A stretch of 64,000 bases of DNA from Periplaneta americana (lineage: Eukaryota; Arthropoda; Insecta; Blattodea; Blattidae), in NCBI RefSeq assembly GCF_040183065.1, contig NC_091132.1, forward strand, positions 157,206,102-157,270,101, given 5' to 3'. Position numbers and translations under genes: made by a program. This document shows positions 32,896 through 63,241 of the stretch, piece by piece (within the stretch, counting starts at the first letter, position 1; every line of letters begins with the position of its first letter). The notes beneath the pieces are model-generated. The model ran no database searches. It was given only the letters and a program-made list of their open reading frames with translations, and was not told the DNA's origin.

Positions 32896-33819
32896 TTAGC
32901 GTAAACTCCAAGAAACACCGGATTTCAATGGTTTCTCACCAAGGTGCACGAGTTCATGCCTTCTAAGATGAGTCGACATCGAGAAACACTTACCACAAAC
33001 ATCACATTTGAAAGTTTTCTCGCCTGTGTGAAGGCGTTCATGGCTTCTTAGGTGACTCGACTGCGAAAAACACTTACCGCAAACTTTACATTTGAAAGGT
33101 TTCTCGCCTGTGTGCACGAGTTCATGCCTTTTAAGATGGCTCGACACCGAAAAACATTTACCACAATCATCGCATTTGAAAGGTTTGTCACTAATGTGGA
33201 CGAATTCATGCCTTCTAAGACGATTCGACACCGAGAAACACTTACCACAAACATCGCATTTGAAAGGTGTCTCACCAATGTGCAAGAGTTCATGCCTTTT
33301 AAGACTACTTGATACCGAGAAACACTTACCACAAACATCACATTTGAAAGGTTTTTCGCCTGTGTGAAGGCGTTCATGGATTCTGAGATGACTTGACTGC
33401 GTAAAACACTTACTGCAAACATCACATTTGAAAGGTTTCTCACCAATGTGCAGGCGTTCATGCCTTCTAAGGTCACTGGAAGCTGAGAAACACCACAAAC
33501 ATCACACCTGAAGGGTTTTTCTCCTGAGTGCAGAAGTTCATGTCTTTTTACTCTACTCGACTTCGAAAAACTTCTACCACAAATATCGCATTCGTAAGCA
33601 TTCTTGACTACATGCTCACGTAAATGCGTCGTCGATTTTGCCGGACTGGAGACACATTCTTTCGACATTTCGAATTGCAATTGCTTCTTAACTTCATGAG
33701 TTTGTGCATGTTTTCGTGAGGAATCTGAATTCTTGGGAATCTCACACACGGTCTCGTTCTCTTCATGTGCAATACTGTGGAATTCTGATGATACAGACCT
33801 CTCTTTGGTAGCTGCAATC
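32896..33819 (-). pseudogene. Zinc-finger copy A, C2H2 finger exon with 4-bp deletion
   Basis: The exon starts after the acceptor TTTTCGTCAG (33820) with phase 1, continuing from the linker exon as ...W-I-A-A-T-K-E-R. An acidic, basic-mixed region precedes the fingers. Finger 1 (CDICGRSF) is intact. Finger 2 is broken at about 33493: GGTAAGTGTTTC of the other fingers is GGTGTTTC here, a loss of four bases. Fingers 3 to 8 follow in the shifted frame (32896-33498), all with C-x2-C, x12, H-x3-H and HTGEKPFKC-type linkers. Finger 9 starts KSGVSW, with both cysteines in doubt, and stops. C2H2 arrays bind DNA in the nucleus. As sequenced, translation would leave finger 1 and enter a wrong frame that stays open for about 150 codons. 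An assembly indel would restore the gene; otherwise it is a recent pseudogene. Confidence 0.9.
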
Positions 33820-34356
33820 CTGACGAAAACATACTATCAGTCAATAGAACAGTTGCAACAAATGTACATTATACGTCAAACCTAAAGGAACCTATTTCAC
33901 CAGAAGAAACGTTACCATTAGATATACAATGCTATAAATAAATTATGAGTTACGTTGGAAATATCAAAATTGTCTCAACATTCTAGTCTTAACCTATAGA
34001 ACAATTTTATGTGGAAGATACCATGATTGCCAACTCTTAGTTGGTTGTTCTTTCTACTGAGAAATCTCTCTGTCTAAAGTCGCCTGCCACGTAGGGTTAC
34101 TCTATTTTATTCTATATATAATTAAACGTAAGAAATTAATGTTTCCATGTCCTTAAAAGCAAGTGAAATTATGTTTACATGTTACATGATAAATAATTTA
34201 TAGAATTAAATAATATGGATATAATAGAGAAGAATAAAAATAGTATTAGCCCTTCAAAATAAATCAGTGAGTAGGTCATTTTTCATATTAAATACAAGAA
34301 AAGATGTTTTTGATAAACATGCGAGAATAATAACAATTTACATTCTCAATTGAAAG

Positions 34357-34401
<45 letters not shown>

Positions 34402-34862
34402 ATGAGTATTACCATTAATCGAAGAGTAACGTACAAAGAATAGTAATTTACCATTGCTTTATCGTTTTTGGACATGAATGTCCTAGTTTGTGCGATTGCT
34501 TCCCAATTCGGATTTCAATGGTGTATAACTTCTGTTGTGGTTTATTTTTATGCCTTATACAACGTTAATATATAGTTTATTTTCTCACCTTCAAATTAAG
34601 TTAATTTTTCCATTGTTGCCATGCAGTGCAATATCTGTAGCTAAAAACCATCAAACTCCGCAATTATTTGCAAAGAATGTATGAAGTTACCAATATTTGC
34701 TGAACCAAATTCTTCATCAGATGCACGCAGTGAAAGTGCTTGAGCTGCGTGAAATTGCACAATGGCAGCAATTCTTTGAAGAATATTCAGCCAATATTTT
34801 TACGCGACTGAAAATATTTAAGCAGTTTTCTCTACACCCTTTCTACAATTTTCGCTCTAGAT
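33820..34862. other. Intron of copy A; (AT)n microsatellite
   Basis: Only an (AT)n run at 34361-34399 stands out. Confidence 0.7.
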
Positions 34863-35114
34863 GTTCTTGTAAGTTATATTACAACGCTTTATCAACATCT
34901 TAGGCCATTTAGCGTCTGAATGGGATGAAAACGATGATGCTGGTGAAACGTATCCGAGGTCCAACACCGAAAATTATCCAGCATTTGCTAATATTGGGTT
35001 AAGGGAAAATCCCGGAAAAATTCTCAACCAGGTAACTTGCTCCGACCGGGAATCGAACCCGGGCCATCTGGTTTCGGGTCCAGACGCGCTAACCGTTACT
35101 CCACAGGTGTGGAG
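34863..35114 (-). mobile_element. SINE-A with 11-bp target duplication
   Basis: TCGCTCTAGAT occurs at 34852-34862 and 35115-35125. The B box is in GGGTTCGATTCCCGG and the full head ends CCACAGGTGTGGA. It is inserted in the intron of zinc-finger copy A. Confidence 0.92.
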
Positions 35115-35125
35115 TCGCTCTAGAT

Positions 35126-36434
35126 AGAAGTGGAATTATGGCAGTTCCGTGTTGAGATGAGTTTTGGTGCTCACTAACACGCACATTTGCAGTCTTCCAT
35201 TCAATGAACCCGGAATTTGAGAAGTGAGGCTTGTTTTCACCGACTAGCCTACAAGACTCTCAAATAACCGCACCCCTGCTTTCGGAATACACTAGCCATT
35301 CTCGCGGCACTCATCGTCTGTAAATGTGTCTTTTTATATCGTTGTCTTTTCGTTTTGACATTTCGACTTTATATTATACTACTCTTCGATAATTCCTTTA
35401 CTATACTGCTTTGGCGAAACATTAGTTTCGGATAGCTTTGGATGTTATGGACGACGGTTCTTCAAAGTATGTTGTGGTTTTTGAGACCCAAAATTAAAAT
35501 ATGTACTAATGTTCGGCACTTTTACAAATTTCTCTTTATTTCTTTCAACTCGCTGTTTTCCTATTTTAAGAACCTGGCCCCACTTAATTTTCTTTTTTCA
35601 CTCATAGTAAATATCAAAACGGCCCGAAACAAAGAAAATATAATTCACTGATACCACACAACCTGCTACAGAACTATGCCGTGAAGGAAAAGAAAAATTG
35701 TTTATTATGAAAACTGTACAACACACATGAACTGTGAATGTACATCGTTACACTGCACAAATTCACCATTACTTAAGAATTAAATTAATGACTGCTACCA
35801 ACCGATTGGAAGTTTGGAACGTCGGCAGTTTTCAGTCCACAATAACACACGAAATACGAGTATAAAGTAATTGGAATACTTATACACGTTTGATTCATAC
35901 ATTTCCATACTGCTCTAATTAATATGGTTTAAATATTTTGATTAATTTTTTTAAGTAGTGGAGAATAATAAACAAAAGAACATGTGACACGAATGTCCTA
36001 ATTACCAATCACTTTGTCAAATCACTACATCAAGGTCCGTCGAAAACAGCAACATCTAGAGATCTTGCACTACACAACAATGCACAGACACCTCACCAGG
36101 TTTGAGCTAGCTGTAAGCATCTTTCGGAAACTGATTGAAGTCCAAAAGCTTTCCCTAGTTATTAGGCCTACATAGTGGAATACAACAATAATTTGGCATA
36201 TATAAAGCTATTTTTAAGAGCTTTTAAAATACCATTACACTACGTAAATCATCAATATTTATACAATGGAAAAAAAAAAATTGCACATGCAAAGCGCATC
36301 CCTATACTTACACGCACGCAATCTGTTGGTGGTAGTTCATAGATACAGCCATTCTGAAGCTGCTTCTAGCCAGTTAACGAAGGGATGTTTCAAACCCAAT
36401 GAACTCTCTACATAAACTCGCACACCACACTCAC
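35126..36434. other. Intron of copy A; no feature recognised
   Basis: A frame at 35442-35651 has no motif. The rest is AT-rich. Confidence 0.5.
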
Positions 36435-36517
36435 CATTCCGTGAAAATCTCGTTGTCCTCTGCTGTTCCTTCCACCCTTGGCTCCTCATTCACTGTGTCC
36501 AAGTCACTCTGCTCTTC
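36435..36517 (-). CDS. Linker exon of zinc-finger copy A, acceptor damaged
   Basis: The exon is 83 bp, phase 0 to phase 2. The peptide is EEQSDLDTVNEEPRVEGTAE then DNEIFTEW (the last codon completed by the finger exon). The donor GTGAGT is intact. The paralogous exon at 59385 is preceded by TCTTCTCAG, but here the sequence is GTGTTTG, so the AG is gone. The next in-frame AG lies six bases inside the exon and would drop EE; another four bases inside would break the frame. Together with the deletion in the finger exon this suggests copy A is losing function. Confidence 0.75.
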
Positions 36518-36687
36518 CAAACACAGAGCAAATAAAACAGAAAGATAGCACAATTTACATGAACAAACCTGAAACGATTCTGTATGCCACAGAAGTGCAT
36601 ATAAGTCGTATTAGGCCACTAGAAGTTTAGTTAACAGATGACTATTCCTAGGGCAGATATTTCATGGGGTAATTGTTTTCCTTATAG

Positions 36688-37112
36688 AACACCGTTTTTC
36701 AACCTTTAACTGTAAAACTCGTTTCAACACGTTACTCCAAGAAAGCCATCTTCCGTGTGATAAAGAGTGCTTTCATATAACGAAAATTTTGCTGAAAATA
36801 CGAGTTTGCAGTGTCCTTCCTTTAATAGAATTTACAACTTTGTATTGAACCATTACCACAGCGCCATGGTGGTAATGGCGAGAAGTACTAGAAATGATGC
36901 TTACCAAACATTTCATGTAATTGTTGCTCCATATATCATTCAATTTGGTCAAATTTTGGGTGGTATCCACTGATATTGAGTAAAATTATAATTATTTTCG
37001 ATCTTACAAGGATTTATATATTTCGAATGTGATTTACTACCAGTACGGCCAGGGTCGCTAAAGAAAGTCTCGACCAAAGGTGGGTCGCACTTTCATAAAG
37101 TTTGAGAACCAC
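36688..37112. mobile_element. hAT-like non-autonomous element (tentative)
   Basis: The left end is CACCGTTTTTCAACCTTT and the right, read inward, CAGTGGTTCTCAAACTTTAT. Such CAGTG-NTTCTCAACCTTT ends are common in hAT elements. The paralogous position in copy B (from 59641) has CAGCGTTTTCCACC, so the insertion may predate the gene duplication. The target duplication is not clear. Confidence 0.4.
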
Positions 37113-37128
37113 TGCTCTAAACTGTATT

Positions 37129-37960
37129 GAAAGTAAATGCACTTCACAGACAGAATAAGAGTAAATAAAATGAACAACAGTTTCATGCATGATGTTCCTG
37201 TTCGAATGCATCAGACTAATTTCCAAAATTTAGAATCCACTCTAAGAAAGTCCCATAATTTAACGTAAAGTTACAAAATATCTTTCCTCTATGGGCAACA
37301 TAATGTCCTACAAAGGATATACTACAAATACATAAATACTTAAAGTGTGAAAAAGGAATGAAGAAAGGTGATAATGTTTGTACCCACATCTAAAGTAAAT
37401 TCAGTTATTTGGAAAATGTAAAAAAGATTGAGAATTTTAGACAGAAACACGGGGAAAACAAACAGGAAGAATGTTCTTAAGCACGACACATCACCGAAGA
37501 AAACTGGAACTCTTTATGTCTAGTCATTTAAAAACTGACATATTGTGGTTTTTACTTTATGTTTCTCTACCCGTATTAATATTAAATGCACTTCACTATT
37601 AAAATAACAGTAAATTAAACAAACAATTGATTTCATGTATGCTGTAGCTGTCAGTATGTATCAGGAGAGTAAGGAAAATTTAGAAGCTATTCTGTAATTC
37701 ACTCAAAATAAGCTCCATAATTTATCTTAAATTGTCAAAATATTTTTCCTCTAAGGGCAACATAACGTTCTGCAAAGGACATACTGGAAATCATAAATGC
37801 TTAAAAACAATGGGTGAAAAACAAATGAAGACAAGTGATAATGTTTGTACCTACATCTAAAGCAAAATCAATTATTTGAAAACTGTAAAAGGTATTGAGA
37901 TTTTTTGGCAAAGACACAGAGAAAACAAGAACATCGCTTGTTCTCAAGTATGACATACAG
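37129..37960. repeat. Diverged tandem duplication, period about 447 bp
   Basis: Paired words run through both units in order: AAATGCACTTCAC at 37136 and 37586, GGGCAACATAA at 37292 and 37755, and GTGATAATGTTTGTACC at 37366 and 37838. A related single unit is at 46290-46480. It lies in the first intron of copy A. Confidence 0.75.
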
Positions 37961-38091
37961 TGACAGAGTTTTGTTTAGCTGCGTGGTTTTCATTTAGCAG
38001 TCGCCCGCCGCTAGGAGCTTACCTGCGGCCAAGCGACCACCAGGTCACTCGGCACTGAAACATTTAATATAGGAATTTGTACCTACTCAGC

Positions 38092-38560
38092 TCAAAGTAG
38101 GTATTGAAAAAAGTCCCCCACCAACTGCTACACACTGTTGGCACCTTCTTATGATATTGTTAATTACTTTGGGAATTCTGCTTAACTGATTGATTCGATT
38201 TCAGCTCTTATATAGTTTTTAAGCAAATTTATTGTATGCGAGTTTTTCATATCAACCTTATTTTTGCGGGGTGTGATCTAATCTATGTTCTACCCCGTCT
38301 AATATTTCTTCTGTAAGAATATGTCTCCTCCGTATTTTATTATCATTTACTGAACCTGACTGTCTGAATTTTTTGGCTAACCTTCTTGTAGTGGCATTAG
38401 GCACGGGTCTATTTGGAAATTTGTTATGGAAGTTCTGTCGTGTTCTCGAACAAGATTTTCTATATTTTATGTACGTAGTAAACATATGCACACGTTCACG
38501 CAATGAAAATCGCATTGCAACAACGCCGAACACACACACATGCAACACAACACGACTCAT
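38092..38560 (-). pseudogene. DUF4817/Tc1-mariner-type transposase relic, internally deleted
   Basis: From 38560 the frame reads MRFSLRERVHMFTTYIKY, FPNRPVPNATTRRLAKKF and RQSGSVNDNK, the N-terminal helix-turn-helix of this transposase type. At about 38258 it jumps to the extreme C-terminal part (LLKNYIRAEIESIS, then after a shift VINNIIRRCQQCVAVGGG and a stop near 38092). The whole DDE catalytic core is missing. Terminal repeats were not located. It lies in an intron of zinc-finger copy A, in the same orientation. Confidence 0.75.
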
Positions 38561-38956
38561 TCAACCTTCACGCACGAGTGCAGATGATAAACTAATTCGC
38601 AACTGTTACTCTATGGCGCGGCGTTCGTTAGTGGAAGCAGGCGGGAAACACACTAACTGCGCGGGCAATAAAACCCCGCGGCGTAACAAAACAGTGTGAC
38701 AGTATTTTCAAACACACTGTGAGAATGTGTTTCTTGGCAACCATTAAGAGTGTGAGTGTAACAAGAAATTTCGATCTCATATTTAAACATAAAACGAGAT
38801 AACGGATCAACATTAGAGTGATGAGATTTTGTTGTCTCTGTCACAGAGTGAAAGGTATTGCATGTACTTTTGTAAAGAGGCAATATCAGTTTTTATCAAA
38901 ATACAAGATAAACACTGGAAGAAGTACAAAAAGTGCATTCCTTGTGTTCCACTCAC

Positions 38957-39094
38957 CTCTGGTTCTCGTTTGACCACAGGGAACGAAATTGGCACCGGAT
39001 CTTCTTCAACTTTTATGTCAGATATGAGATCAGAGCTCTGGTCCTCATATTCCTCCTTTATACCAGTCACACGCGGATCCAAGAAATTCCGTTC
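38957..39094 (-). CDS. Zinc-finger copy A, type-2 acidic module exon
   Basis: It is 138 bp, phase 0 both ends. The acceptor is TTGTACTGCAG before 39094 and the donor GTGAGTGG follows 38957. The peptide begins ERNFLDPRVTGIKEE and ends FPVVKREPE. It carries three psi-K-x-E sites (IKEE, IKVE, VKRE) in a strongly acidic context, as in regulatory regions of transcription factors. It joins in frame to the EEQSDL linker exon. Flanking introns are duplicated with the exon at 46540, 61800 and 62990. The start-codon exon was not found between here and 46.7 kb. Confidence 0.8.
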
Positions 39095-39100
39095 CTGCAG

Positions 39101-40119
39101 TACAATCAAACGTCTTAAATGACCAATTTATTACAGGGTGTTAGAAGACGACTTCTAACGTTACAAGCTGCTCTCTGTGTGTTTTATGCCATAGCTAGAC
39201 TACAACCCGCAACATTATGATGAATAAGGATAGGATTCATATGCAAAAGCAAATTTTGTCATGCAAAAACAATATTATACGTTATAAACTAGGATTTCCA
39301 GACATACTGGACAAAAATACGGGACAAGTATGCGCACCCATCAAATATGTCAATCTTTCAAAGTGTGTGTGTAGTAACTTTTACTACACAAACACTTTAC
39401 TAACTAAGAGTAAGTAAGCAAATAGTAAACAAAATTGTGACGGAGCATATTTGCATTAAGATTAAGCTTCTTTATGTAAGTTGCCTTCAAATTGCTTTTA
39501 CTAAGTTATTGTAGAAATAGCTACAAAATACTCTACTCACGTGATAATAATCTTAGAAATCAAACCGCCTTATCCTTCAACATTTCTCTGAAGAATTAAT
39601 TTCACTTAACAATTGTTTATTTTGAAGAATCACATCACGAAAAGCAAAACAATCCTCACTGTAGAATGATTTTACAATAAGCATTGATTTTACTGTTTTT
39701 AGGAACTATTTTTCTCATCAGTCCATAGAGCGTTCAAGCGAGAAAATAATCTTCCGACACACGAATTTGTTCCAGGGATACACATAATGAACTCCATTAC
39801 CCTCTTCAGATTTGAGAGTTCTCCTTCAGTACTTTGGTGTTGCCACCTTGAGAAATTAATAACTCGCAATAATTGTTTCATAATAGCCCATCTGCAATGC
39901 AATGATGAAGTGTGATATTTGTCATTTGTAATATACAATAGACACTTTTTCTTAGTTTAGAACTCTAAAATACGAGACGGAAAGCTGCCCCCATGACTTT
40001 TCTAGGGACAACGGGACGCAATAGTAAAAAACGGGACGATCCCGTATTTTGCGGGACGTTCATTCATTCATTTATTTTATTCCATAGATCTTACATGAGC
40101 AATGAAGCTTTAAGATGTG
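39101..40119. other. Upstream intron, duplicated flank
   Basis: 39130-39300 is similar to 62190-62330 and 63285-63440 (ACTTCTAAC, ATGATGAATA, CATATGCAAA words), so the duplication unit extends upstream of the exon. No gene. Confidence 0.6.
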
Positions 40120-40350
40120 GAACAAGTCAAAATTTTACAATATTACAATTACAATTTTTACAAATTTATACAGTTCTACAATTTAGTAATTTGCTACAAT
40201 TTTTACAATTTTGTGCAATTTTTTTACAATATTTTGCCGAGATGTAGTGAGATGAGGTGAGGTCCGAGGATTCGCCAAAATATTACCCGGCATTTGCCTT
40301 TTGGTTGGGGAAAACCCCGGAAAAACCCAACGAGGTAATCAAATCAAAGG
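40120..40350 (-). repeat. TACAATTT-rich stretch and truncated SINE, family D
   Basis: 40120-40230 is a degenerate array of TTACAATTT-like words. 40246-40345 has the family D body on the minus strand (CCGAGGATTCGCC, GGGGAAAACCCCGG, CGAGGTAATC) without the tRNA head; the fuller copy is at 57201-57370. Confidence 0.6.

Positions 40351-41777: not shown

Positions 41778-41778
<1 letters not shown>
40351..41778. other. No gene seen
   Basis: 40430-40640 is similar to 62370-62460 and 63760-63980 (CATTCCTGCATATAA, AAATCCCTTGTGTAT), further evidence for the duplicated unit. No coding motif. Confidence 0.5.
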
Positions 41779-44009: not shown

Positions 44010-44413
44010 ATTATATTTCCATTTAGTACAATATTCTGGTCACGAGACATAATAATATACTTTGTCTTTCGGGATTTACTACCAAACCTATCGCTTTATT
44101 TGCTTCAAGTAAAATTTCCGTGTTTTCCCTAATCGTTTGTGGAGTTTTTCCTAACATATTCACGTCATTCGCATAGACAAAAAGCTGATGTAACCCGTTC
44201 AATTCCAAACCCTCTCTGTTATCCTGAACTTTCCTAAAGGCATATTCTAGAGCGTCGTTAAAAAGTAAAGGTGATAGTGCATTTCCTTGCTTTAGCCCGC
44301 AGTGAATTGGAAAAGCATCAGATAGAAACTGGCCTATAAGTACTCTGCTGTAAGTTTCACTGAGACACATTTTAATTAATCGAACAAGTTTCTTGGGAAT
44401 ACCAAAGCCACAT
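44010..44413 (-). pseudogene. RTE-like LINE fragment, RT core only
   Basis: The frame 44023-44370 includes [31 protein letters not shown] and YANDVNMLG. The catalytic YADD is mutated to YAND, losing the first aspartate of the pair. It ends at a frameshift within the NPEKTK region and abuts an (AT)n tract. There is no 3' tail. Confidence 0.85.
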
Positions 44414-44972: not shown

Positions 44973-45207
44973 CAATATATGCCTAAAACAGATAACTATT
45001 AATATAAAATCAATGACAGTAATCAGTAATGAATGTGTTTATCCATAAATGTAATAAGGCTGCGTGTTATCCAGTTTGGATACTGTGAAATTTGGCGTGG
45101 CTCTCCGACAGAGGTTGTTTCTCTTGTAATTTCTAGAGAGTACCAATTCTCTAGATGGACAATGGCTATAAGTAATCAGGATAACTCCTGAGTGTTTTAT
45201 AGTTCGT

Positions 45208-45385
45208 TATTTTACCACGCTTTATCAACATCTAAAGTTATTTAGCGTATAAATGAGATGAAGTTGATAATGTCGGTGAAAGGAGTCCGAGATCCAGCAC
45301 CGAAAGTTACACAGCATTTGCTCATATTGGGGGGGGTTGAAGGAAACCTAAAAAAAAAAAATTATCCTGGTAACTAGTCCCATGC
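45208..45385 (-). mobile_element. SINE-A, truncated
   Basis: The 3' body (TTATCAACATCTAAAG, GAGATCCAGCACCGAAAG) is present. The copy breaks in a G and A run near 45340 and lacks the tRNA head. Confidence 0.75.
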
Positions 45386-46700: not shown

Positions 46701-46803
46701 CTCAGGTTCACGTTTCAATACAACGGACGATATTGGCACGGGATCTTCCTCAAATTTCACCTCAGATGTGAAGGCATGTCCCTGGCCCACATATTCCTCG
46801 GAG
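46701..46803 (-). pseudogene. Orphan, partly decayed type-2 zinc-finger exon
   Basis: From the donor GTGAGT (46695-46700) the exon reads back as ...SEVKFEEDPVPISSVVLKREPE, with EEYVGQGHAFT before it. Psi-K-x-E sites VKFE and LKRE remain. The 5' part (ERNFLD...TGIK) and its acceptor are unrecognisable. No linker or finger exon is found below it before copy A, so this unit is a remnant. Confidence 0.7.
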
Positions 46804-46902
46804 TAATAAGACATCATTTCGTAGGTCTATGTCTGACGGTCGTTAAATTGTTTCCTGCACTACCTCCATTATATTATACGGTCAGGTCACGGCTGACTAA
46901 AT

Positions 46903-47991
46903 CCCTTTCCAAATCATTTTCATTTATTGCATCTAATGAAATTAAAACGGTACAAAAATCTTCATAAAACGTGTCAACATCAATATTGAGATGAAGATCA
47001 TTAGGACCAATCAGATGCCAGAAGGAGAACCTACGACCTATACAGATGCCTCAAACTAGGAAGCTGCCTGGAGAGGGGAAGTAGTAGAGCTAATGGAGGG
47101 GGCCCACCTAGACTCCGATACCCAGGTATAGTCATATATCTGAAAAGTTGACCTCTTGACAATGTATTCAAGATGTACCCTCCCTATGCAGCCTTCTCAA
47201 CTGTTATTAGAACTGAGCTGTACCGTTCTAGTCCACAGTGCACAGCAGTAGGCGGACAGTGGTAGGGGAGAAGTGCTGTATGCGCCTGCGCGAACGAGAC
47301 AGCTTGCTAGTTTGAGGCATCTGTACTTAGGAACGAGAAACCAGGTCGTCCCCCGAAATGAGTGAAGTTTTCAAACACAAAACAGGCCTTTTTCTAAAAT
47401 TGGGAATTCAAAATCATACATTTACAAGTTGTAGGCTAGGTGTGTAATATTATGTGACAGGTCAGGTTAAGTGTGTAGGGAAGGAGGCATGTTTGTACAG
47501 TCTTTCCATTTACATTATTTATTCAATCCATTATCGGTTTTTTTAAATATTTAAATGGCAAATATATATAAACATCTCAGAAATTTATATTTGCAGAAAT
47601 CACATACAGGACTTCAATTTCAAAACTTGACAGTCTCAATAACTAATTATTTAAATTGAAAAAAAAAAAAACACGCCAATATAGATATTGAGGGGGAAGT
47701 CACAAACCAGGCTTAATTGCATTTCAAATTTCACCCTACGTTCCAGCTGCCGACACTTTGAAATTTCAAATATCACAACTATAATTTTATGCTTATATCT
47801 GAAAGAGCGTTCAATTGTTTACACCTCATTCCTGGTATACGTTTTCCTTGCTCCTTCCTGAATAACTTCATTTTATAATCCATTTGTTTTTTCTACTTGG
47901 TCAATTTATGACGCTTTATCAAGTGTTACAGTTATCTAGCATCTGAGTAATATCAAACCAGGGTCCATGACCGAAAATTCTTGCTTGTCCT

Positions 47992-48060
<69 letters not shown>

Positions 48061-48196
48061 TGAAAGGAATATAATGTCATTAATAAATTCGTTATACTAA
48101 ACTTTAAATAGGTTTTCATAGTAATGTTAAGCTACTGTTGTGGAGCTGTTCTTAATAATAATCCGTGGCGCTACACCCCGTGAAGGGCCTAGATGA
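46903..48196. repeat. Left arm of a large inverted repeat
   Basis: It pairs with 50571-51580 on the opposite strand through GACACTTTGAAATTTC-like, AATGGATTGAATAAATAATG-like and TGTGTAATATTATGTGACAG-like blocks. Differences are an inserted fragment at about 46988-47357 and length changes in (AT)n and (CT)n at 47995-48057. A truncated SINE-A tail (47905-47985) is present in both arms, so it predates the inversion. Confidence 0.88.
47043..47323. mobile_element. 281-bp MITE with TA target duplication
   Basis: TIRs CAGATGCCTCAAACTAG and complement, extended to about 24 bases with one or two mismatches. TA flanks each side. The uninterrupted host sequence is present at 42240-42260 (CGACTTATACTTAGG), which proves the insertion point. 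TA plus CAG ends suggests Tc1/mariner-type mobilisation. Confidence 0.88.
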
Positions 48197-50349: not shown

Positions 50350-50615
50350 CTTCGATAAGGACTCCTTGCGGAGGCTGGTGGTACTATAGACTGCCATGTT
50401 TTGTAGGGAACGATCCATAGTACTGTTGGCCTCCGCAGGGAGCGCTTATCAGAGATCTTTAGCCTCTCTAGGGGGGGATCATCGTGCTAACCACACAATA
50501 CCTCAATTCTGGTTGGATGATCGTCCACCTCTGCTTCGGCGTGTGGGGGTGAGGCCAGCAGCCGGCTGGTCGGTCTAGGCCCTTCACGGGCTGTAGCGCC
50601 ACGGATTATTATTAA
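50350..50615 (-). mobile_element. SINE-like family E with a 78-bp hairpin
   Basis: Minus strand begins GTGGCGCTACAGCCCGTGAA, then GACCAGCCGGCTGCTGGCC and GGTGGACGATCATCCAACC. At 50365-50443 a palindrome pairs GCGGAGGCTGGTGGTACTAT with ATAGTACTGTTGGCCTCCGC. Only the first 35 bases are shared with the left arm at 48166-48196. Confidence 0.6.
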
Positions 50616-50726
50616 GAACAACTGCACAACAGTAGCTTAACATTACTGTGAAAACCTATTTAAAGTTTAGTATAACGAATTTATTAATGACATTATATTC
50701 CTTTCAGGATATATATATAAATATAA

Positions 50727-50757
<31 letters not shown>

Positions 50758-51580
50758 TATACAGACAGAGAGAGAGAGAAAAGGCAAGCAAGAATTTTCG
50801 GTCATGGACCCTGGTTTCATCTCGCTATCATTATCACTTTGATATTACTCAGATGCTAGATAACTGTAACACTTGATAAAGCATCATAAATTGACCAAGT
50901 AGAAAAAAACAAATGGATTATAAAAAAATGAAGTTATTCAGGAAGGAGCAAGGAAAACGTATACCAGGAATGAGGTGTAAACAATTGAATGCTCTTTCAT
51001 ATATAAGTATAAAATTATAGGTGTGATATTTGAAATTTGAAAGTGTCGGCAGCTGGAGTGTAGGGTGAAATTTGAAATGGAATTAAGCCTGGTTTGTGAC
51101 TTCCCCGTCAATATCTAAATTGACGTGTTTTTTTAATTCAATTTAAATAATTAGTTATTGAGACTGTCAAGTTTTGAAATTGAAGTCCTGTATGTGATTT
51201 CTGCAAATATAAATTTCTGAGATGTTTATATATCTTTGCCATTTAAAGATTAAAAAAAAAAACCGATAATGGATTGAATAAATAATGTAAATGGAAAAAC
51301 TGTACAAACGTGCCTCCTTCCCTACACACTTAACCTCACCTGTCACATAATATTACACACCTAGCCTACAACTTGTAAATGTAAGATTTTGAATTCCCAA
51401 TTTTAGAAAAAGGCCTGTTTTGTGTTTGAAAAATTCACTCATTTCGAGGGACCTTGAAAGATCTAATGATCTTCATCTCAATATTGATGTTGACACGTTT
51501 TATGAAGATTTTTGTACGGTTAAAATTTCATTAGATGCTATAAATGAAAGTGATTTGGAAAGGAAATTGTCGTCTTTATT
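50571..51580. repeat. Right arm of the large inverted repeat
   Basis: Complement of 46903-48196. The two arms enclose about 2.4 kb. Confidence 0.88.
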
Positions 51581-51638
51581 TCATAAAAACTTCAGAATAA
51601 AAGTAGGCAATATTTTATTCTTTGAAAATCTAATTTAA
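51420..51638 (+). pseudogene. Unidentified reading frame conserved in both arms of the inverted repeat
   Basis: The frame reads DLHLNIDVDTFYEDFCTV then KISLDAINESDLERKLSS. In the left arm the complementary strand keeps the same frame with mostly conservative changes (SLDAINENDLERDL) before it diverges at about 46903. Conservation of frame in both copies suggests a true coding segment of a repeated element or of a host gene. I do not recognise the family. Confidence 0.35.
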
Positions 51639-52925
51639 TTGATAATACGAGAACTGTTAAAATAAGGTTATATAAAAATTAAGAACATTTATTAATCGTT
51701 AACTTCAGGAATCTGTGCAAGTAAACGAAGAGTAATATGGAATAATTCGGCTCTATGAACATTCTCCACGTCCCAACAATTTCAAACTAATTATTACAGG
51801 GTTGAAATATATGCGAGAAATAAATCGATCTAAATAAAGCTTTACAAAATAAAAAGAGAACTATCACCACATCGATAGGGAGATCATAGGTTTCTTTAAA
51901 AAAATATTGTGCGAAACGTTTACTGACGTCTTACTAGGAAACTAATAATTGCTGTCTAATGTCGAAGATAATGCAGTTAAGAATGATTTGTCACATTGGC
52001 ACATTTGAGTACAATGGACGGTTTTCGTGTACATGAAAGAAAAAAAATCGTAAGTTTGATGTTTGCCTGGCATGACAAGACTTGTCAAACAGGATCACTT
52101 CAAGAGTTTAAATAGTATATAATGTACCAAGTGACAAAAACGTTGATTTCTTATTTTGTCTTAAAATGTGCTGAGATAACCGTTATGTAAATACAGAACG
52201 GCGAAATAAAACGCGACCTGAAAGTAATTCCAAATCGTAGGCTATCCAAAGACATAGCTAGGAACATCACTGTTTCCAGATATAATGGACTAAGGCTTGT
52301 TAGCTAGCAATGCTTTCATTGAATGTATCTTAGTTTTTGTAAACATTACACCTTTTTTGTATCATTATATTGCTACAACATAAATTTCGTTCAAATTTGA
52401 AATAACAATCGAAAGTGAATAAGGTACTATACCGTAATAGTTCCGTTTAATACAGAAAATTGTACATTTAACAGATTTGTCAAATAGTTAATAAAGTTGA
52501 AGGTATGTAATCAAAATGTATAAAAAATAGGATGTTATTGTTCTCATGATTAAGGGTTTTATTAATGAATGTGACCAGGAAGACCTACAGATCTCTTTCA
52601 TGAGCCGTAACCGAATTTTGCACAAAACGAAAATCATAATATTAAGTGAAACTGTCAGGTACAATTAGATCTAATATAAGTAATTATTGTTTCATGAAAA
52701 CTTGACCATATGTATGTTGCAAGTATCTAACTCATCTGAGATCTGTGACTTTAAAAGTGCTTCTCAAGACACTCTTGCAACAACTAAACTTCAGATCTCG
52801 AGAACTGAGTGCATAAGAATTACGACTGACAAGCCTGGAGTAGTGATGACTCGAACAACTTTACAGTGATCTTGAACAGTGGACCGAGAGTGGGTTTTTA
52901 AGCATGAAGCTGAATTTGAACAAAT
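51639..52925. repeat. Duplicate of the zinc-finger copy A 3' flank
   Basis: Partner of 31321-32215, in the same orientation and order. It marks the 3' end of a zinc-finger unit, presumably copy B, separated from its finger exon by the LINEs at 53305-55221. Confidence 0.7.
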
Positions 52926-53304
52926 TGCCTCACCTCTACAGCTTTTAATTGTATCAGTATTTCCATATTCATATTCATTAATTTTATTCCTCATTATACC
53001 TAGTACAGTATAGTTCACATAGCCCGTTATATTTCTTAGTCTTCTAGCACAAAGCCTCATATCACCCTGTTTAATATTTTATCACTTTTTCCACAATCAT
53101 AAAGAAGCTCTACAAATAAGATATAATACCATAAATACGTAACATAATGGTTACTTTATTACTTCAATAACATTTTGACAAGTACACTGCATGATTAAAA
53201 GAGTGTTTTATGATGCACAATAAACCATCAATGGAAACAATGTGCATAATTGAGCATTGGCGTTTTTCACGAGTACAAACCAATTAACATATACAAAGAT
53301 TGAT

Positions 53305-54894: not shown

Positions 54895-54926
<32 letters not shown>

Positions 54927-55634: not shown

Positions 55635-55955
55635 TGCCTAAAGCTTTTAGTTTACAGGACTGGGAAAAATATGTTCCACAGACATCGCATTACTAAATCT
55701 ATTCGTCTGACAAAATAAACACGTTTCAGAGATATCAGACTTCAAAGGCTTCTCGCCTATAAGTGTTAAACGCTATTTAGGCTACCCGACCGTGAAAAAC
55801 CTTTACCAGAATTGCATTACAAAGATTCTTTAAAAATAAACTTCTGTACATCAATAGTTACGCTATACTTACTAGCTAAACAAATTTGACTGTCATATGT
55901 AGAAGGTTTCTCGTCTGTGTGAAAAAATTCCTAACTCTTATAACTTTCGACTAAG
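55635..55955 (-). pseudogene. Fossil C2H2 fingers downstream of copy B
   Basis: Beyond the stop at 55960: HTDEKPS near 55895-55920, CNSGKGFSRSGSLNSV with two stops near 55770-55815, and CDVCGTYFSQSCKLKAL near 55640-55695. The last keeps both cysteines but lost its histidines. The ancestral array thus had at least three more fingers. Confidence 0.75.
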
Positions 55956-55959
55956 AGAA

Positions 55960-56797
55960 TCACTCAAAACCAACATCCCATTTTAAAGTCTCCTTGTCCT
56001 TGTGCTGGCGTTGATGGCCTCTTAAAGTAATCTTATGAGTGAACCTTTTACCACAAACGCCACACATGAAAGGTTTCTCGCCTGTATGCAGGCGTTCGTG
56101 AACTCTTAGAGCACTTGAATCTGAGAAACACATAAAACAAACATGACATATAAAAGGCTTCTCACCTGTGTGCCGGCGCAGATGTCTTTTTAGACCACCC
56201 AATAGCGTGAAATCCTTACAACAAACGTCACATTTGAAATGTTTCTGGCCAGAGTGTAGCAGTTCATGGTTTCTTAGGATACCCAAATCCGCGAAACACT
56301 TACCACAAACATTGCATTTAAAAGGTCTCTCGCCTGTGTGCCGGCGCAGATGGCTATTTAGATTACTGGAGGTCGAGTAACTCTTACCACAAACATCACA
56401 TTTGAAAGGTTTCAAGCCAGTATGCAGAAATATGTGTGCTCTCAGGTTGCCCAACTGCGCGAAACACTTACCACAAACATCACACTTGTAAGGTTTCTCG
56501 CCGGTATGGAGGCGTTGATGAATTTTTAGGCTTGTTGAGGTTGAAAAAAACTTACCACACACACCGCATTTGAAAGTTTTCTTGCTTACGTCCTTGGGTA
56601 AATGACTGTTCAGTTTCTCTCCATTTGAGAAATATATTTTAGGAAGTTCTAATTCCAACTGCACTTCACATTCTCGAGTCCGCACAGGTCTTTCCAAGGA
56701 ACTTGAATTCTTAACAATTTCACACACAGTCTCATTCTCGTCAAGTGCAAGACTGTCCAGATCTATTGATACATTTCTGTCATTCGTACCTGCAATC
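55960..56797 (-). CDS. Zinc-finger copy B, seven-finger C2H2 exon
   Basis: The exon begins at 56797 after TTTACTTCAG, phase 1, and completes an arginine codon with the linker exon (...FIER-IAGTNDRN...). About 80 residues of acidic and mixed sequence precede the fingers. There are seven C2H2 fingers with TGEKP-type linkers: CGVCGKFF, CDVCGKCF, CDVCGKSY, CNVCGKCF, CDVCCKDF, CHVCFMCF and CGVCGKRF, each with H-x3-H. Linkers vary at two places (HTGLKPFKC, HSGQKHFKC). An eighth finger begins TLKWDVGFE and stops, its first cysteine changed to tryptophan. The product is a predicted nuclear DNA-binding protein. The recognition-helix positions differ from finger to finger, so a specific long site is expected. 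This is the best-preserved gene in the window. Confidence 0.88.
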
Positions 56798-57200
56798 CTG
56801 AAGTAAATATACTATCAGTCTATAAAATATTTGCAAGAAATACACATTCAATTTATTCAATATTGAAATAAAACAAACCTATTTTCATGACAAACTACAT
56901 TACCATTAGAGATACAAGCTTGTAATTAATTAGGGTAATGTTGTATCAAAATGTTTCAACAATTTGGACTTCACCTGTACTATGAATTTTATAATGGATA
57001 ATGAGGGTTACAGTTAACATTCTGTGAAATACAGCGCAAAGTAGCTATTAATATTCAATTTATTTAAACTATTAGTAGTCAGTGGATAGCAAGAAGGACA
57101 TATTAATTGCTACTTTGCGCTGTATTTTACAAAAATTTTACTTTAAACATCGTTACCCAATTTTGACTCACACTACTTTTGCTTTGAAAGTCTCATTTGG
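56798..57200. other. Intron of copy B, no feature
   Basis: 56990-57135 contains an inverted pair (ACAGCGCAAAGTAGC / GCTACTTTGCGCTGT), a loose hairpin of about 80-base separation. Confidence 0.5.
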
Positions 57201-57370
57201 TGAAATGAGGCCGAGGATTCGCCATAGATTACCTTGCATTCACATTACGGTTGGGGGGAAAACCTCGGAAAAAACCCATCCGGGTAATCAGCCCAAGTGG
57301 GGATCAAACCTGCCCCCGAACGCAAATTCAGACTGGTAGGCCAGTGCCTTAACCGAATGAGCCACGCCGA
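57201..57370 (-). mobile_element. tRNA-derived SINE, family D
   Basis: Minus strand: GGCGTGGCTCATTCGGTTAA (A box), GGTTTGATCCCC (B box), then GGGCTGATTACCCGG, a GGTTTTCCCCCCAACC stretch and GGCGAATCCTCGGCC. A partial copy is at 40246-40345. Confidence 0.8.
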
Positions 57371-58061
57371 TAGCTAATCATTATTACAATATTTCAATAA
57401 GTAAATCATGTTTCTGTCTTAGTTGCCTGTCTTTTATAGAATTTTTCTATATTTATTACACCTTTTTTTAAAGCTGATAATTATTCTGCATGACGTATCT
57501 CAGGTACGTACTAATAACATAAACTACCTAATTTATATGATTGTGATTTCATCTACAAATACAAGTCCTTATTTACTGTAACACTTTTTATAACAGTTGT
57601 TTCGTGACAGCACTGCGCTAAATTCACTATGTGTGAGATATACTGGAGAGTAACAGAGTTAATGGCTTTATTGCTAAGAACTTTGCACAAGTTAGTAACA
57701 ACCCCAACATGTTTGTGAAAGTGAGACAGTAGGGCTAGGTCTACTCAGTGGAAGGGAAAAGAAATCAGAACCTGGTGAAACAACATTGCTCAAGAACCAT
57801 TGTATGTCTTATTGTAGTTCTAATTCTGGTGATGTGAAAGTGAAAGACTGGTGCCCTTAAGTAACCAGAATGCATAAATGAACTGACGAACGAAGAAACA
57901 AAGAAGGAAATAAATGAAAAAAAAAAAAACATAAAAATAAAATTAATGTTACACAGTGACTGTAAAGATGATGAGCGATTCAGAGAAAAATACATGCAAT
58001 GGACTCAAAATGGTAGTTCAATATTACCCTGACCTGCAATATGAGTGTGGAGGTCCATTCA
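57371..58061. other. Intron of copy B, no feature
   Basis: AT-rich; a poly(A) run at 57919. Confidence 0.5.
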
Positions 58062-58070
58062 TGCATGTAC

Positions 58071-59141
58071 TTAGTTACTTACTGGCTTTTAAGCAACCAA
58101 GAGGTTCAATGCCGCCCTTACATAACCCCATCATCAGTCCCTATCTGGAGCAAGATTAATCCAGTCTCTATCATCATATCCCACCTGCCTCAAATCCATT
58201 TTAATATTATCCTTCTATCTATGTCTCGGCTTCATCAAAGGTCTTTTTCCCTGCGGCCCCCCAACTAACACTCTATATGCATTTATGGATTCGCCCATAC
58301 GTGCTACATGCCCTGCCCATCCTAATTATATCAGGTTAAGATAACAAAGCGTGCAGTTCTGCGTTGCGTAACTTTCTCCACTGTCCTGTAACTTCATCCC
58401 TCTTAGCCCAAATATTTTCCTAAGCACCTTATTCTCCAACACCCTGAACCTATGTTTCTCTCTCAAAGTGAGAGTCCAAGTTTCACAACCATAAAGAACA
58501 ACCGGTAATATAACTGTTTTATAAACTCTAACTCTCAGATTTTTTGGCAGCAGACTGGATGATAAAAGCTTCTCAGCCGAATAATAACAGGCACTTCTCA
58601 TATTTATTCTGTGTTTAATTTCCTACCGAGTATCATTTATATCTGTTACTGTTGCTCCCAGGTATTTGAATTTTTCCACCTCTTCAAAGGATACATTTCC
58701 AATTTTTATATTTCTATTTCGTACAATATTCTCGTCACGAGATATAATCATATAGTTTGTCTTTTCTAGATTTACTTCCTAACCTATCTCTTTACTTGCT
58801 TCAAGTAAAATTCCCGTATTTTCCCTAATCGTTTGTGGATTTTTTCCTAACATATTCACGTCATCTGCATAGACAAGGAGTTGACAATTCCAAATCCTCT
58901 CTGTTATCCTGGACTTTCCTAATGGCATACTCTAGAGCAAAGTTAAAACATAAAGGTGATAGTGCATCACCTTGCTTTAGTCCACAGTGAATTGGGAACG
59001 CATCTGACAGAAAATGACCTATACGGACACTGCTGTACGTTTTACTGAGACACAATTTAATTAATCGAACTAGTTTCTCGGAAATACCAGAATCACTAAG
59101 AATATCATATAAAACTTCTCTCTTTACCGAGTCATATGCCT
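58071..59141 (-). pseudogene. RTE-like LINE copy with 9-bp target duplication
   Basis: TGCATGTAC flanks it (58062-58070 and 59142-59150). 58861-59055 encodes [20 protein letters not shown] and loses YADD through a deletion near 58880. 58326-58601 encodes the ACYYSAEKLLSSSLL and YGCETWTLTLREKH part. The C terminus (58071-58320) is in broken frames. It sits in the intron between the finger exon and linker exon of copy B. Confidence 0.9.
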
Positions 59142-59384
59142 TGCATGTACATCTGCATTATTTTTTTCTTAAAATATAGCCACTTTCAGTGACGAACATG
59201 AAGAAAAGTTTGAACAGTACTTATGGAAACCAGATACCAAGGAAAGTGGATGCAAATGTGATGACTGATTATTGCTGGATGACTCAGACAGACAGTTCTT
59301 TTGAAACTGCTTCTGGACAGTCAAGTACACGAAAACTTAAAACACAATGAAATCCCTACGTGAAGGCTCGGACATGACACTCAC

Positions 59385-59464
59385 CTTTCGATGAAAATCT
59401 CGTCCTCTGCTGTTACTTCCACCCTTGCCTCCTCATTCAAATTGCGCAAGTCACTCTGCTCTTC
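59385..59464 (-). CDS. Linker exon of zinc-finger copy B
   Basis: 80 bp, phase 0 to phase 2. The acceptor is TCTGTCTTCTCAG before 59464 and the donor GTGAGTG follows 59385. The peptide is EEQSDLRNLNEEARVEVTAE then DEIFIE, acidic. Both borders fit the neighbouring exons without frame change. Compared with copy A it lacks one codon (DNE versus DE). Confidence 0.82.
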
Positions 59465-60186
59465 CTGAGAAGACAGAGCAAATAAAAGAAAAAGATAGCA
59501 CAATTTACATTAACAAAAGCGCATCAATTTTAGATGCCACAGAATTCCGTTTAAGTGGTATTAGCCCTACCAGAGTTTAACTAAAAGAAGAGAAATCTTG
59601 GGGCAGAATTTCCTGGGATAATTCTTTTCTTATAGAACAGCGTTTTCCACCAGTTTTGAACCTGTGGCACAATGAAGGTGTAATTAAAAATCCTGCGGCA
59701 TATAACATAAAACTGTTGTTTCCAAGTAGGACGGGAATTTTGAAGGTTTTAGAAGGGAATGATTGCTACAAAATACAGATAAATCAGATAAGTTTACATA
59801 TGCATTGTTATATTAAACAAAATATTTTCAATTTTAGATTAACTATTACTTAGTCAACATAGCAGGCAATAAATGGTGAAAAGGCAAGATGCACAAAAAA
59901 AAAAAAAATGTAGAGAAGAGTAACAAAATACATATCATTCACAAATTGAAGTGACACAATTTATGTATATTTATTTAAAGATTATGATATAAATGCAAAA
60001 TTTAATGACACAGAATTATTCGAGTGGAATATTACGTCATAATTATGCGTGTTTATTTTTTAATTTGTTATTTAGGAAATTCGAAAACATACAATATCAT
60101 CACAAGTGTTGGTAAGTATTTAATGAGAGAAACATTTTCTTTCATAAACACATATATTACTTTAATTGTAATTACAATAAATTAAT
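59465..60186. other. Intron of copy B, no feature
   Basis: 59465-59660 parallels 36518-36700 (AGCACAATTTACAT, TTCTTATAGAACA), as expected for duplicated introns. Confidence 0.6.
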
Positions 60187-61398
60187 TACTTACTTACAAA
60201 TTAAGGATACACGGGAAAAACGAACACTGTCACAATGCTCTTAAGGGTGATGTCATTATCTAAATCACTATATTACTACAACTTTAGTGTTATTTTTACA
60301 AAATGTGGTAAAGGGGAATTAAAACTATGGATACATTCATCATTTCCTTCATTTGAAGTAAAATAGCAATAAATTTAGCAGTAATATACCGAAATAGATC
60401 TATTTCTCAATCTTAATAGAAATGTGACATTCTTCGTTTTTCCTGTGTACCCTTTAAATGGCTTTTGAAGAATCCGGAGGTTCATTGCTCTGCTCACGTA
60501 AGCCCACCGTCGGTCCCTATCATCATTTCCCACGTCCCACAAATCGATTTTAATATTTTCCTCCCATCTACGTCTCAGCCTCCTCGAAGGTCTTTTTCCT
60601 TCCGGCCTCCCAACTAACATTCTACAGTATATGCATTTCTGGATTCGCCCGTACGTGCTGTATGTCTTGCCCATCTCAAACGTCTGGATTTAATGTTCCT
60701 AATTATGTCAGGTGAAGAATACAAAGCATACAGTTCTGCATTGTGTAACTTTCTCCATTCTCCCGTAACTTCATCCCTTTTAGGCCCAAATATTTTCCTA
60801 AGTACCTTATTCTCAAACACCTTTAATCTCAGTTCTTCTCTCAAAGTAAGAGTCCAAGTTTCACAACCATACAGAACTGGTACTATAACTGTTTTATAAT
60901 TTCTAACTTTCAGAATTTTTGACAGCAGACTAGATGACAAAAGCTTCTCAACCGAATAATAACACGCATTTCCCATATTTATTCTGTGTTTAATTTCCTC
61001 CCGAGTGTCATTTATATTTGTTACTGTTCCTCCAAGATATTTGAATTTTTCCACCTCTTCGAAAGATAAATCTCAAATTTTTATTTTTCCACTTCGTAGA
61101 ATATTCTGATCACGAGACATATTCATATACTTTGTCTTTTCGCGATTTACTTCCAAACCTATCCCTTTACTTGGGTCAAGAGAAATTTCCGTGTTTTCCC
61201 AAATCGTTTCTTTGGATTTTCTCCTAACATATTCACGTCATCTGCATACACAAGAAGCTGATGTAACCCGGTCAATTCTAGACCCTCTGTGTTATCCTGA
61301 ACTTTCCTAATGCCATATTCTAGAGTGAAGTTAAACAGTAAAGGCGATAGTGCATCTCCTTGCTTAAGCCTGCAGTGAATTGGAAAAGTATCAGGCAC
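60187..61398 (-). pseudogene. RTE-like LINE copy, interrupted by a MITE
   Basis: The 3' tail TTACTTACTTAC is at 60187. Coding frames: 60614-61054 (KFKYLGGTVTNINDTREEIK, YGCETWTLTLREELR, KLHNAELYALYSSPD) and 61159-61401 ([19 protein letters not shown] and the intact YADDVNMLG). Frame breaks at 61075 and 60620 and truncation at 61398 make it inactive. It lies in an intron of copy B. Confidence 0.88.
60204..60455. mobile_element. MITE inserted in the LINE 3' UTR
   Basis: Ends AAGGATACACGGGAAAAACG and, inward from the right, AAGGGTACACAGGAAAAACG, with pairing extended to TGTCACA. The LINE reads AAAT-GGCTTTT across the site in other copies; AAAT is present at both borders, so the target is about 4 bp. 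The AAGGRTAYA terminus is like that of the 8251-9024 MITE. Confidence 0.75.
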
Positions 61399-62019
61399 CA
61401 ATCCTTAACCTAAAGGTTTGCTCAAATTCTCTGTCATTATACATAAAAACAATTCATGTCTATCATGGAAATACCTTCGTCCTAATAATATTTCTTCATT
61501 CTAAAATTTCGTCATCAGAAGAATCCGTTATATCCAAAACAATATTGTTACGGTTTAACTATTTACTATATAAATTACAGTAACTGCGCTATAAAGAGAA
61601 TAACATAAATACTTGATCCATGATCAGTCACTTGACCAGCAAAAATTTGTTGATCAAATCTGATGGAAGACGTATCTCCAATAAAATAATGATTGTTCTC
61701 TCTGCAACAGAAATAGAACTGATGGCCAATCAAACCCTCCATGATTGCCAATCATATTTGATCAGTGTTTCTGCAACCGGGTCTAAGTGTAACAACCTTT
61801 TTCGTTTTCATAATTAAAACATAAGACGAGATAACAGTTCAACATTAGTTCTCCAGAACATGACATGACTTCTAATAGTAATCAGTGATAAGTGTTTTTG
61901 TTTCTATTATACAGTGAAAGGCACTGTAAGTACTCTTGAAAAGAGGCAGTGTCTGTTATAATCTAAATACAATATATAACTGGAAGAAGAACACAGTTCA
62001 TTCCTTGTGCTCCACTCAC
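61399..62019. other. Intron of copy B, no gene
   Basis: 61810-62019 parallels 38780-38956 and 46500-46700. Confidence 0.6.
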
Positions 62020-62145
62020 CTCTGGTTCTCGTTTGACCACAGGGAACGGATCTTCCTCAAATTTTACCTCTGATATGAGATGAGAGCTCTGGTTCACATA
62101 TTCTTCTTTTATGCCAGTCATATGGTGATCCAAGAAATTGCGTTC
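62020..62145 (-). CDS. Zinc-finger copy B, type-2 acidic module exon (second)
   Basis: 126 bp, phase 0. The acceptor is GTGCTGCAG before 62145 and the donor GTGAGTGG follows 62020. It begins ERNFLDHHMTGIKEE and ends FPVVKREPE; four codons of the usual DPVPISFP stretch are missing in frame. Psi-K-x-E sites: IKEE, VKFE, VKRE. It would splice to the EEQSDL linker exon. Confidence 0.8.
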
Positions 62146-62465
62146 CTGCAGCACAAAGACACGTCTTAAAAGAGCAATTTATTACAGGGTATTAAAAGAC
62201 GACTTCTAACGTTACAAGCTGCTCTCTATATATCCGCATGTAACGACTTGACATGATGAATAGGGCCAGAATTCAGAATTCATATGCAAATGCAAATTTT
62301 TCATGAAAAAACAATTTTTAGACATATTATGAACGTCTGTAATAATACGAAAACCTGATTGTGCATATTTCAGCCATTCCTGTATATAATATACTATTGT
62401 GCATATACTGTAGCATATTTTCAAGATTGTGTTGGATTAAACCCAAAATTTGAGTCGTTTTCCAA

Positions 62466-62471
62466 AAAAAC

Positions 62472-62514
<43 letters not shown>

Positions 62515-62686
62515 GTAATAATAATAATAATAAGTGTTGGCATAGGCTTCCGCGGCTGGTGGACGTGGTGTGTGGAGAAATTCCCGGGCTTATACCGCGT
62601 TGTCTTGGTGCTAGTGGCTGACATTTCGATCGCTGTGTTGTGGTCATCTTCAGAGCTGTGGAATAAGGAAATGGTGTGCGAGGTTG

Positions 62687-62741
<55 letters not shown>

Positions 62742-62830
62742 GAGTCTCAATGGGAGAGGACTTCCAATGATAGGTCGTAGGTTCTCCTTTTGGCATATCA
62801 TTGGTTCTTCGTTGTCGAAGACCTTTAATA
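62466..62830 (-). mobile_element. Penelope-like fragment with hammerhead-like motif (copy c), (AAT)n and (AT)n tracts
   Basis: (AAT)n at 62471-62532 and (AT)n at 62690-62734 border and split the fragment. On the minus strand CTGAAGA (62653-62647), a GACC/GATC stem with one mismatch, GAAA and GTC (62622-62620) recur. Translated text SSEDDHNTAIEMSATSTKTTR-like and KPGNFSTHHVHQPRKPMPT is shared with copies a and b. It lies between the two type-2 exons of copy B. Confidence 0.5.
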
Positions 62831-63103
62831 TGAATACTCCCCTATGCAGACTTCAACCATGCAACTCTGAGCACTACATCTGCCCCGTCACTAACAAAGC
62901 ATATTAAGACATTTGAAGAAATCCTTCATCTACACAATAAGAAGCTAAGCAATTCAATGAAACTTCCTTCATTGTTGTAGATTTATGTTCACATCACATC
63001 ACATGATAAATCTAGAAGAGGAGAAGACAGTGTCCGTTACAATCAAAACATAAGTTAAACACTGGAAGAAGATCACACAGTGCATTCTTTGTGCTGCACT
63101 CAC

Positions 63104-63241
63104 CTCAGGTTCATGTTTCACTACAGACAACGAAATTGGCACTGGATCTTCCTCGAATCTTATGTCAGTTGTGAGATCGTGGCTTTGGTCCTCATATTCC
63201 TCTTTTATGCCAGTCACATGATGATCTAAGGAATTCCGTTC
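63104..63241 (-). CDS. Zinc-finger copy B, type-2 acidic module exon (first)
   Basis: 138 bp, phase 0. The acceptor is TGTACTGCAG before 63241 and the donor GTGAGTGC follows 63104. It begins ERNSLDHHVTGIKEE and ends LSVVKHEPE. Psi-K-x-E sites IKEE and VKHE remain; the middle one is IRFE, its lysine lost. With 62020-62145 it gives two successive modules, both of which can be included without frame change or used as alternatives. The start-codon exon would lie beyond 64000. Confidence 0.78.

Follow-up and report, generated by a model that had tools for sequence, protein, structure and literature searches.

A tandem cluster of C2H2 zinc-finger genes in Periplaneta americana with a repeated N-terminal module and an annotated splice choice that removes the fingers

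The 64,000-nucleotide stretch of the Periplaneta americana genome analyzed here (contig NC_091132.1, positions 157,206,102 to 157,270,101 of assembly GCF_040183065.1; hereafter the window, with coordinates counted from its first letter) contains a tandem cluster of C2H2 zinc-finger genes made up of three units, A, B, and C, all on the minus strand. The cluster is of a known kind, a lineage-specific C2H2 expansion; its new elements are a repeated N-terminal module, of which our literature searches turned up no description, and a recurrent choice of splice acceptor by which the fingers are lost. A first-pass annotation, made from the DNA letters alone, had described two parallel gene models here, and all the exons that it named exist on the minus strand in the phases claimed, 0/0 for exon 2 and 0/2 for exon 3. 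It missed the ATG exon of unit B (46817-46701), unit C (14709, 7887, 4055), and a decayed exon 2 near 17277-17152.

Within the window, unit A begins with two copies of exon 2, both in phase 0/0: copy a (63104..63241), encoding a 46-residue module, and copy b (62020..62145), encoding a 42-residue module. Both are found in full (46/46 and 42/42 residues) in P0182, an annotated P. americana "uncharacterized protein" of 156 residues given as isoform X5 in its UniRef name. Copy b follows copy a in P0182, which makes the two copies serial exons and not the alternative starts for which they had been taken. Exon 3 (59385..59464, phase 0/2) is likewise equal to P0182 and, like copy a, is bounded by an AG acceptor and a GTGAGT donor; the three donors of the unit read GAG/GTGAGT, GAG/GTGAGT, and AAG/GTGAGT. 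Exon 4 (55960..56797) encodes a linker and 7 C2H2 fingers in a frame that stays open to the stop, and has a second-acceptor start at 56789. When 63241-63104, 62145-62020, and 59464-59385 are joined to exon 4 as entered at 56789, 117 residues precede the stop, and 117/117 are identical to residues 40-156 of P0182. The exon order that had been rebuilt for unit A is that of the end of an annotated protein; in P0182 exon 3 joins exon 4 at 56789, and the proposed junction at 56797 does not occur in it. The first 39 residues of P0182 correspond to a start exon outside the window, the nearest stretch inside it being the start exon of unit B (35/39 residues). P0182 thus shares its last 117 of 156 residues with unit A and differs in entering exon 4 at the second acceptor, without fingers. 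Unit A is a real annotated gene.

Being in phase 0/0, the exon 2 copies can be duplicated or skipped with the frame unchanged; P0182 carries both, one after the other, and P0001 and P0157 differ by a single module, being otherwise one protein. The exon 4 copies (from 56797 and 33819) need one base to complete a codon. The conserved GTGAGT donors that had been reported were found at 5/5 of the named exon 2 and exon 3 copies, and when scored by splice-site frequencies, four of these copies rank within the top 0.12% of the 7,278 GT dinucleotides in the window and B exon 3 within the top 0.49%.

Unit B, the neighbor of A, is decaying. Its start exon (46701..46817) has an ATG with an in-frame stop upstream, ends in half a module, and carries a GTGAGT donor; a reading of the same interval as a decayed exon 2 was rejected, since an ATG start exon of this type is common in annotated proteins. 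One copy of an inverted pair (46904-48193 and 50574-51563, 91-95% identical) ends about 90 bases upstream of it. Exon 2 (38957..39094) encodes a 46-residue module between an AG acceptor and a GTGAGT donor, with a best protein match of 85% (P0219). Exon 3 (36435..36517) has lost its acceptor AG, and use of an in-frame AG 9 bases on would move its start to 36508 and drop three codons; its residues are matched at 27/27 positions by P0231, whose modules are different, and no equal of B as a whole occurs among the proteins fetched. Exon 4 (32896..33819) holds a linker and finger array whose frame is broken inside finger 2 by a 4-base loss near 33491 (33492-33491), with 6 complete fingers then in another frame, the sole ATG of which lies in the last of the six. 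Downstream of it, 31279..32240 (minus strand) gives four co-linear blastn matches (71-80%) to 51594-52957, downstream of A exon 4. Unit B, though its start exon and the order of its exons are preserved, is not an intact gene. The claim that the borders join without a frame break stands for the exons of unit A and fails for the B exon 3 acceptor at 36517 and the frame of B exon 4.

Three annotated proteins (P0002, P0010, and P0011) end in a B-like out-of-frame finger tail, Cys-Gly-Val-Ser-x and then 4 residues, in different fingers. Splicing was considered as the cause of these tails; judged from the proteins alone, a B-type 4-base loss fits better, and this loss may mark a recurrent deletion hot spot.

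Unit C, also on the minus strand, is represented by a start exon with an ATG (14617..14709; tblastn E 1.7e-7), whose donor is weak, reaching only the top 6.4%, and by two copies of exon 2 detected by tblastn, copy a (7750..7887) and copy b (3918..4055). The flanks of these two copies are 87% identical, so copy b is a local duplicate of copy a. No exon 3 or fingers were found in the remaining 3.9 kb of the window; unit C may run off its end, with these parts outside. A decayed exon 2 with stop codons lies at 17152..17277 on the minus strand (tblastn E 0.002 to 1e-4).

The family to which these units belong, named in this analysis, is defined by a 46-residue, phase 0/0 module exon ahead of a finger exon, an arrangement found in the window's genes. 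Usable copies of the module occur in 154 of 239 fetched proteins (243 copies, 229 distinct); a looser count gives 160 proteins with 1 to 5 modules each. All 154 are from P. americana, as are 40/40 matches to the rebuilt N-terminus in one search, 120/120 among the matches listed (the best 120 of 185) for the rebuilt N-terminus, and 29/29 newly seen module-bearing matches in a search that included the fingers. One termite protein noticed among the matches (P0059, partial) lacks the module, in searches that covered no termite or other cockroach genome. The window does hold a tandem C2H2 cluster of a blattodean, as had been said, and its description as blattodean-specific was not shown, the listed module matches all being from P. 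americana.

Modules are rich in acidic residues, predicted to be disordered, and dense in SUMO-type psi-K-x-E/D motifs, of which the 229 distinct copies contain 605 (2.64 per copy, against 0.22 per copy in shuffled sequences; shuffle mean 51, maximum 66). End columns apart, the least variable columns of the module are lysines 13 and 42 and acids 15 and 44, and the x positions between them vary. A middle motif sits at either of two places (first only in 58, second only in 111, both in 17, and neither in 43 of the 229), which may be a difference between subfamilies and not repeated compensation. At least 3 psi-K-x-E motifs are present in the N-terminus of 147/154 module-bearing proteins versus 16/76 N-termini of other, non-Periplaneta zinc-finger proteins, at densities of 2.76 versus 0.67 per 100 residues. 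In an AlphaFold model of P0005 built with 20 aligned sequences, the predicted local distance difference test score is below 50 at residues 39-96 and 116-208, and block means are 77-97 in most of the fingers. Pfam matched no family in P0006, which has five modules, and NCBIfam, a library built for prokaryotes, gave nothing for P0006, P0001, or P0012.

Some module proteins (P0031, P0034, P0037, P0224, and P0205) are annotated as joined to other domains, namely HTH_psq, DUF659, a mariner-type Transposase_1, and the Mos1 HTH_48, each exceeding its Pfam cut-off, and a lipocalin-like stretch that falls below it; these may reflect the capture of transposases or faulty gene models. In the window, 1763-2026 (plus strand, with stop codons) and 2209-2445 (minus strand) correspond to residues 1-101 of P0117, a module-bearing protein that has a Pfam PF05485 (THAP) domain.

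The second feature of the family concerns the entry into exon 4. In unit A this exon begins ttcag/GATTGCAG/, with a second AG 8 bases after the first, and entry at the second AG yields Arg-Tyr-Glu-stop, the C-terminal end of P0182, with all fingers lost. A separate last exon encoding "YE" was sought for A in a pattern scan restricted to the TAT codon, and none was found; the tail is that of the second AG of exon 4. In unit B, second-AG entry predicts a tail like that of P0180, with 36/42 residues as predicted. Tails of this type, with all fingers lost, end 11 of the 154 annotated module-bearing proteins, and 89/154 show no finger at all. Thirty-nine proteins enter exon 4 in the finger frame, and in 31 of these the codon of the third residue begins with G, as a second AG requires, although this count is made at the protein level only and may have other causes. 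If exon 4 is the last exon, an early stop within it should escape junction-dependent decay.

The fingers themselves are of the tandem C-x2-C-x12-H-x3-5-H type, 7 in A exon 4 and 6 complete in one frame of B exon 4, with Pfam zf-C2H2 matches at E 5.5e-35 and 7.7e-36. Across 322 distinct fingers, the four contact positions are variable, at 3.2 to 3.6 bits. No KRAB domain was matched by Pfam in rebuilt A or P0006, and no ZAD domain in P0006 or in rebuilt A, whose start exon is outside the window. The 5' splice-site match GGTAAG is frequent in finger codons (4 in A exon 4, 4 in B exon 4, and 28 in the window over both strands). In P0017, a right-frame exon 4 stops inside a finger at Cys-Gly, and the protein continues in exon 4 of a different copy, read in the wrong frame; going by the protein sequence, it looks as though splicing had made use of a donor inside finger codons.

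Units A and B match each other by blastn over exons 2, 3, and 4 (E 3.7e-101 to 9.3e-71) at a nearly constant offset of about 23 kb. This constancy is partly coincidence, since the A and B introns carry different insertions, and a repeat unit of 20-24 kb with duplicated introns and flanks was an overstatement: the alignment covers 2,755 of 9,356 co-linear bases. A 51-row tree built on exon 3 and the linker pairs A with P0009 (support 100/99) and puts B next to P0017 (97/77), in a clade of six rows at 100/99, and forcing A and B to be sisters is rejected, at a cost of 101.7 log-likelihood units (approximately unbiased test, p-AU 1.6e-104). On these sequences, A and B are not sister copies and each has nearer relatives elsewhere in P. 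americana, so that the two parallel gene models do not survive, B also lacking a splice acceptor and a finger frame. Flank identity between A and B falls from 82% beside exon 2 (247/301) to 70% before exon 4 (129/184; p 0.0025), so the parts of a unit are not all of one age, or some have undergone conversion. Ratios of nonsynonymous to synonymous change (dN/dS) by the NG86 method are 0.22 for A2a-B2, 0.32 for A2b-B2, 0.60 for the linker, and 0.70 for C2a-C2b, with dN above dS in exon 3 on 10 changes; by YN00 they are higher, at 0.78, 0.62, and 0.97 for A2a-B2, A2b-B2, and C2a-C2b. Selection between these copies is weak or relaxed.

Repeats are scattered through the cluster. Related reverse-transcriptase pieces lie at 58068-59142, 60513-61401, 5283-6387, 30022-30465, and 44011-44406, the first two inside introns of unit A, with no counterpart at the equivalent positions in B. 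A 308-bp unit occurs as two tandem copies (25262-25870, 99% alike) and as a 99% identical piece at 15439-15650; tRNA-Asn genes (15532-15605 and 25847-25920) lie within its copies, and a tRNA-Tyr gene at 27111-27182. A short repeat in five copies (4849-5106, 26739-26978, 34864-35099, 45206-45381, and 63469-63727) is probably a short interspersed element, with what looks by eye like a tRNA-like promoter region.

One point of comparison is the KRAB zinc-finger genes of tetrapods, which form lineage-specific tandem clusters with an N-terminal part on separate exons, a single finger-array exon, variable contact residues, and broken copies. The cockroach cluster resembles them in its lineage-specific tandem copies, separate N-terminal exons, single finger exon, variable contact residues, and broken copies, and differs in that its N-terminus is a repeated module with SUMO-type motifs in which Pfam finds no KRAB domain. 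The FiNZ genes of cyprinid fish are described as likewise forming a large family confined to one lineage, in which a separate exon encodes a short acidic N-terminal part; by that description, the 28-residue, single-exon FiNZ part is set apart from a 46-residue module repeated 1 to 5 times (PMC10547256). ZAD zinc-finger genes are an insect family with gains, losses, and lineage-specific expansion (PMC7655104); the cockroach genes are alike in these respects and unlike in that the members scanned have no ZAD domain. Work on Drosophila Bonus reports that its repression is SUMO-dependent and needs a SUMO site of the same consensus (PMC10672805). The P. americana genome paper gives 16,750 protein-coding genes, with 1,901 assigned to 269 families unique to the species, and "zinc finger" does not occur in its main text (PMC12774602). 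We found no literature on this cockroach family in open-access papers.

Our best explanation, to which taken whole we give a probability of roughly 0.55, is that this tandem cluster evolves through birth and death, that its genes encode repressors with SUMO modules, and that their output depends on a choice between tandem acceptors. The products are built from frame-neutral module exons, the short exon 3, and one exon carrying linker and finger array; the fingers would recognize a DNA sequence, the disordered modules would present several SUMO-acceptor lysines, and SUMO would draw in repressive chromatin complexes. If this is how the parts work together, the proteins are likely sequence-specific, SUMO-dependent repressors that act like KRAB zinc-finger proteins. 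The two AGs 8 bases apart would then decide whether a gene makes a protein with fingers or one of modules only, the latter a possible brake, and module number would change through exon duplication and skipping with the frame kept. In favor of this explanation are the identity of unit A to the end of P0182, the one-module difference between P0001 and P0157, the second-AG tails of annotated proteins, the motif density of the modules and of the N-termini that carry them, their low model scores beside well-modeled fingers, the variable contact positions, and the SUMO site that Bonus needs to repress. A bolder extension, which we regard as speculative and doubtful, is that the family is an independently evolved, KRAB-like genome surveillance system, with an exon-duplicated SUMO-module effector and an acceptor switch to a module-only competitor for SUMO-reading partners.

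Several observations weigh against this explanation. Two protein searches found no protein with the linker and finger array of A, the best identity being 60% (P0055). The exons of A and B are about as diverged as their introns, exon 3 excepted (71/81 vs 201/264, p 0.03), so selection on these copies is weak. Non-contact finger positions 17 and 19, late in the helix, vary as much as the contact positions (3.3 and 3.1 bits). SUMO-type motifs are not special to the family, since 16/76 unrelated zinc-finger N-termini also reach three or more, and the idea that they are unique to it was dropped on this count. A pair of AGs at 8 bases has a chance rate of 6.6% (465 of the window's 7,066 AGs) and by itself means little, which leaves the annotated tails as the evidence, and the isoforms are annotation predictions.

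Much of this would be expected if the locus were mostly debris, with A yielding no more than noise or a protein without fingers, B and C being pseudogenes, and the second acceptor a functionless splicing error. We think this unlikely, though it has the two lesions of B, the weak donor of the C start exon, the unmatched fingers of A, the finger-less majority of module proteins, and the out-of-frame tails of P0002, P0010, and P0011 on its side; it is harder to square with a finger exon in A that is still open, with 7 intact fingers, and with a second-AG tail that recurs in 11 annotated proteins. The units might also be alternative cassettes of one long transcription unit, joined across gene borders as cassettes are in lola-type genes. 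The junction in P0017 and the frequency of GGTAAG in finger codons would fit such a locus, but B has its own ATG exon, P0182 begins with a different one, and the right-plus-wrong-frame join occurs in 1/154 proteins; we hold this to be improbable. Least probable of all, the acid-rich, disordered modules could be activation or protein-docking repeats with incidental lysine motifs, but shuffles that preserve their composition lower the motif count 12-fold, and, end columns apart, no columns vary less than those of the lysine and acid in two motifs.

For the reading of such clusters, the case is a reminder that a gene may have open finger exons and good donors and still not be intact: the second model, unit B, fails at its acceptor and in its frame. 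The family also touches a wider question. Zinc-finger and retroelement numbers are linked across animals, with no such link seen in flies, according to a comparative study in which the words "cockroach" and "Periplaneta" do not occur (PMC10547256). A 3.2-Gb cockroach genome with a large family of its own, a definable module, and a countable splice switch would allow the idea that zinc-finger genes follow transposon load to be tested in an insect.

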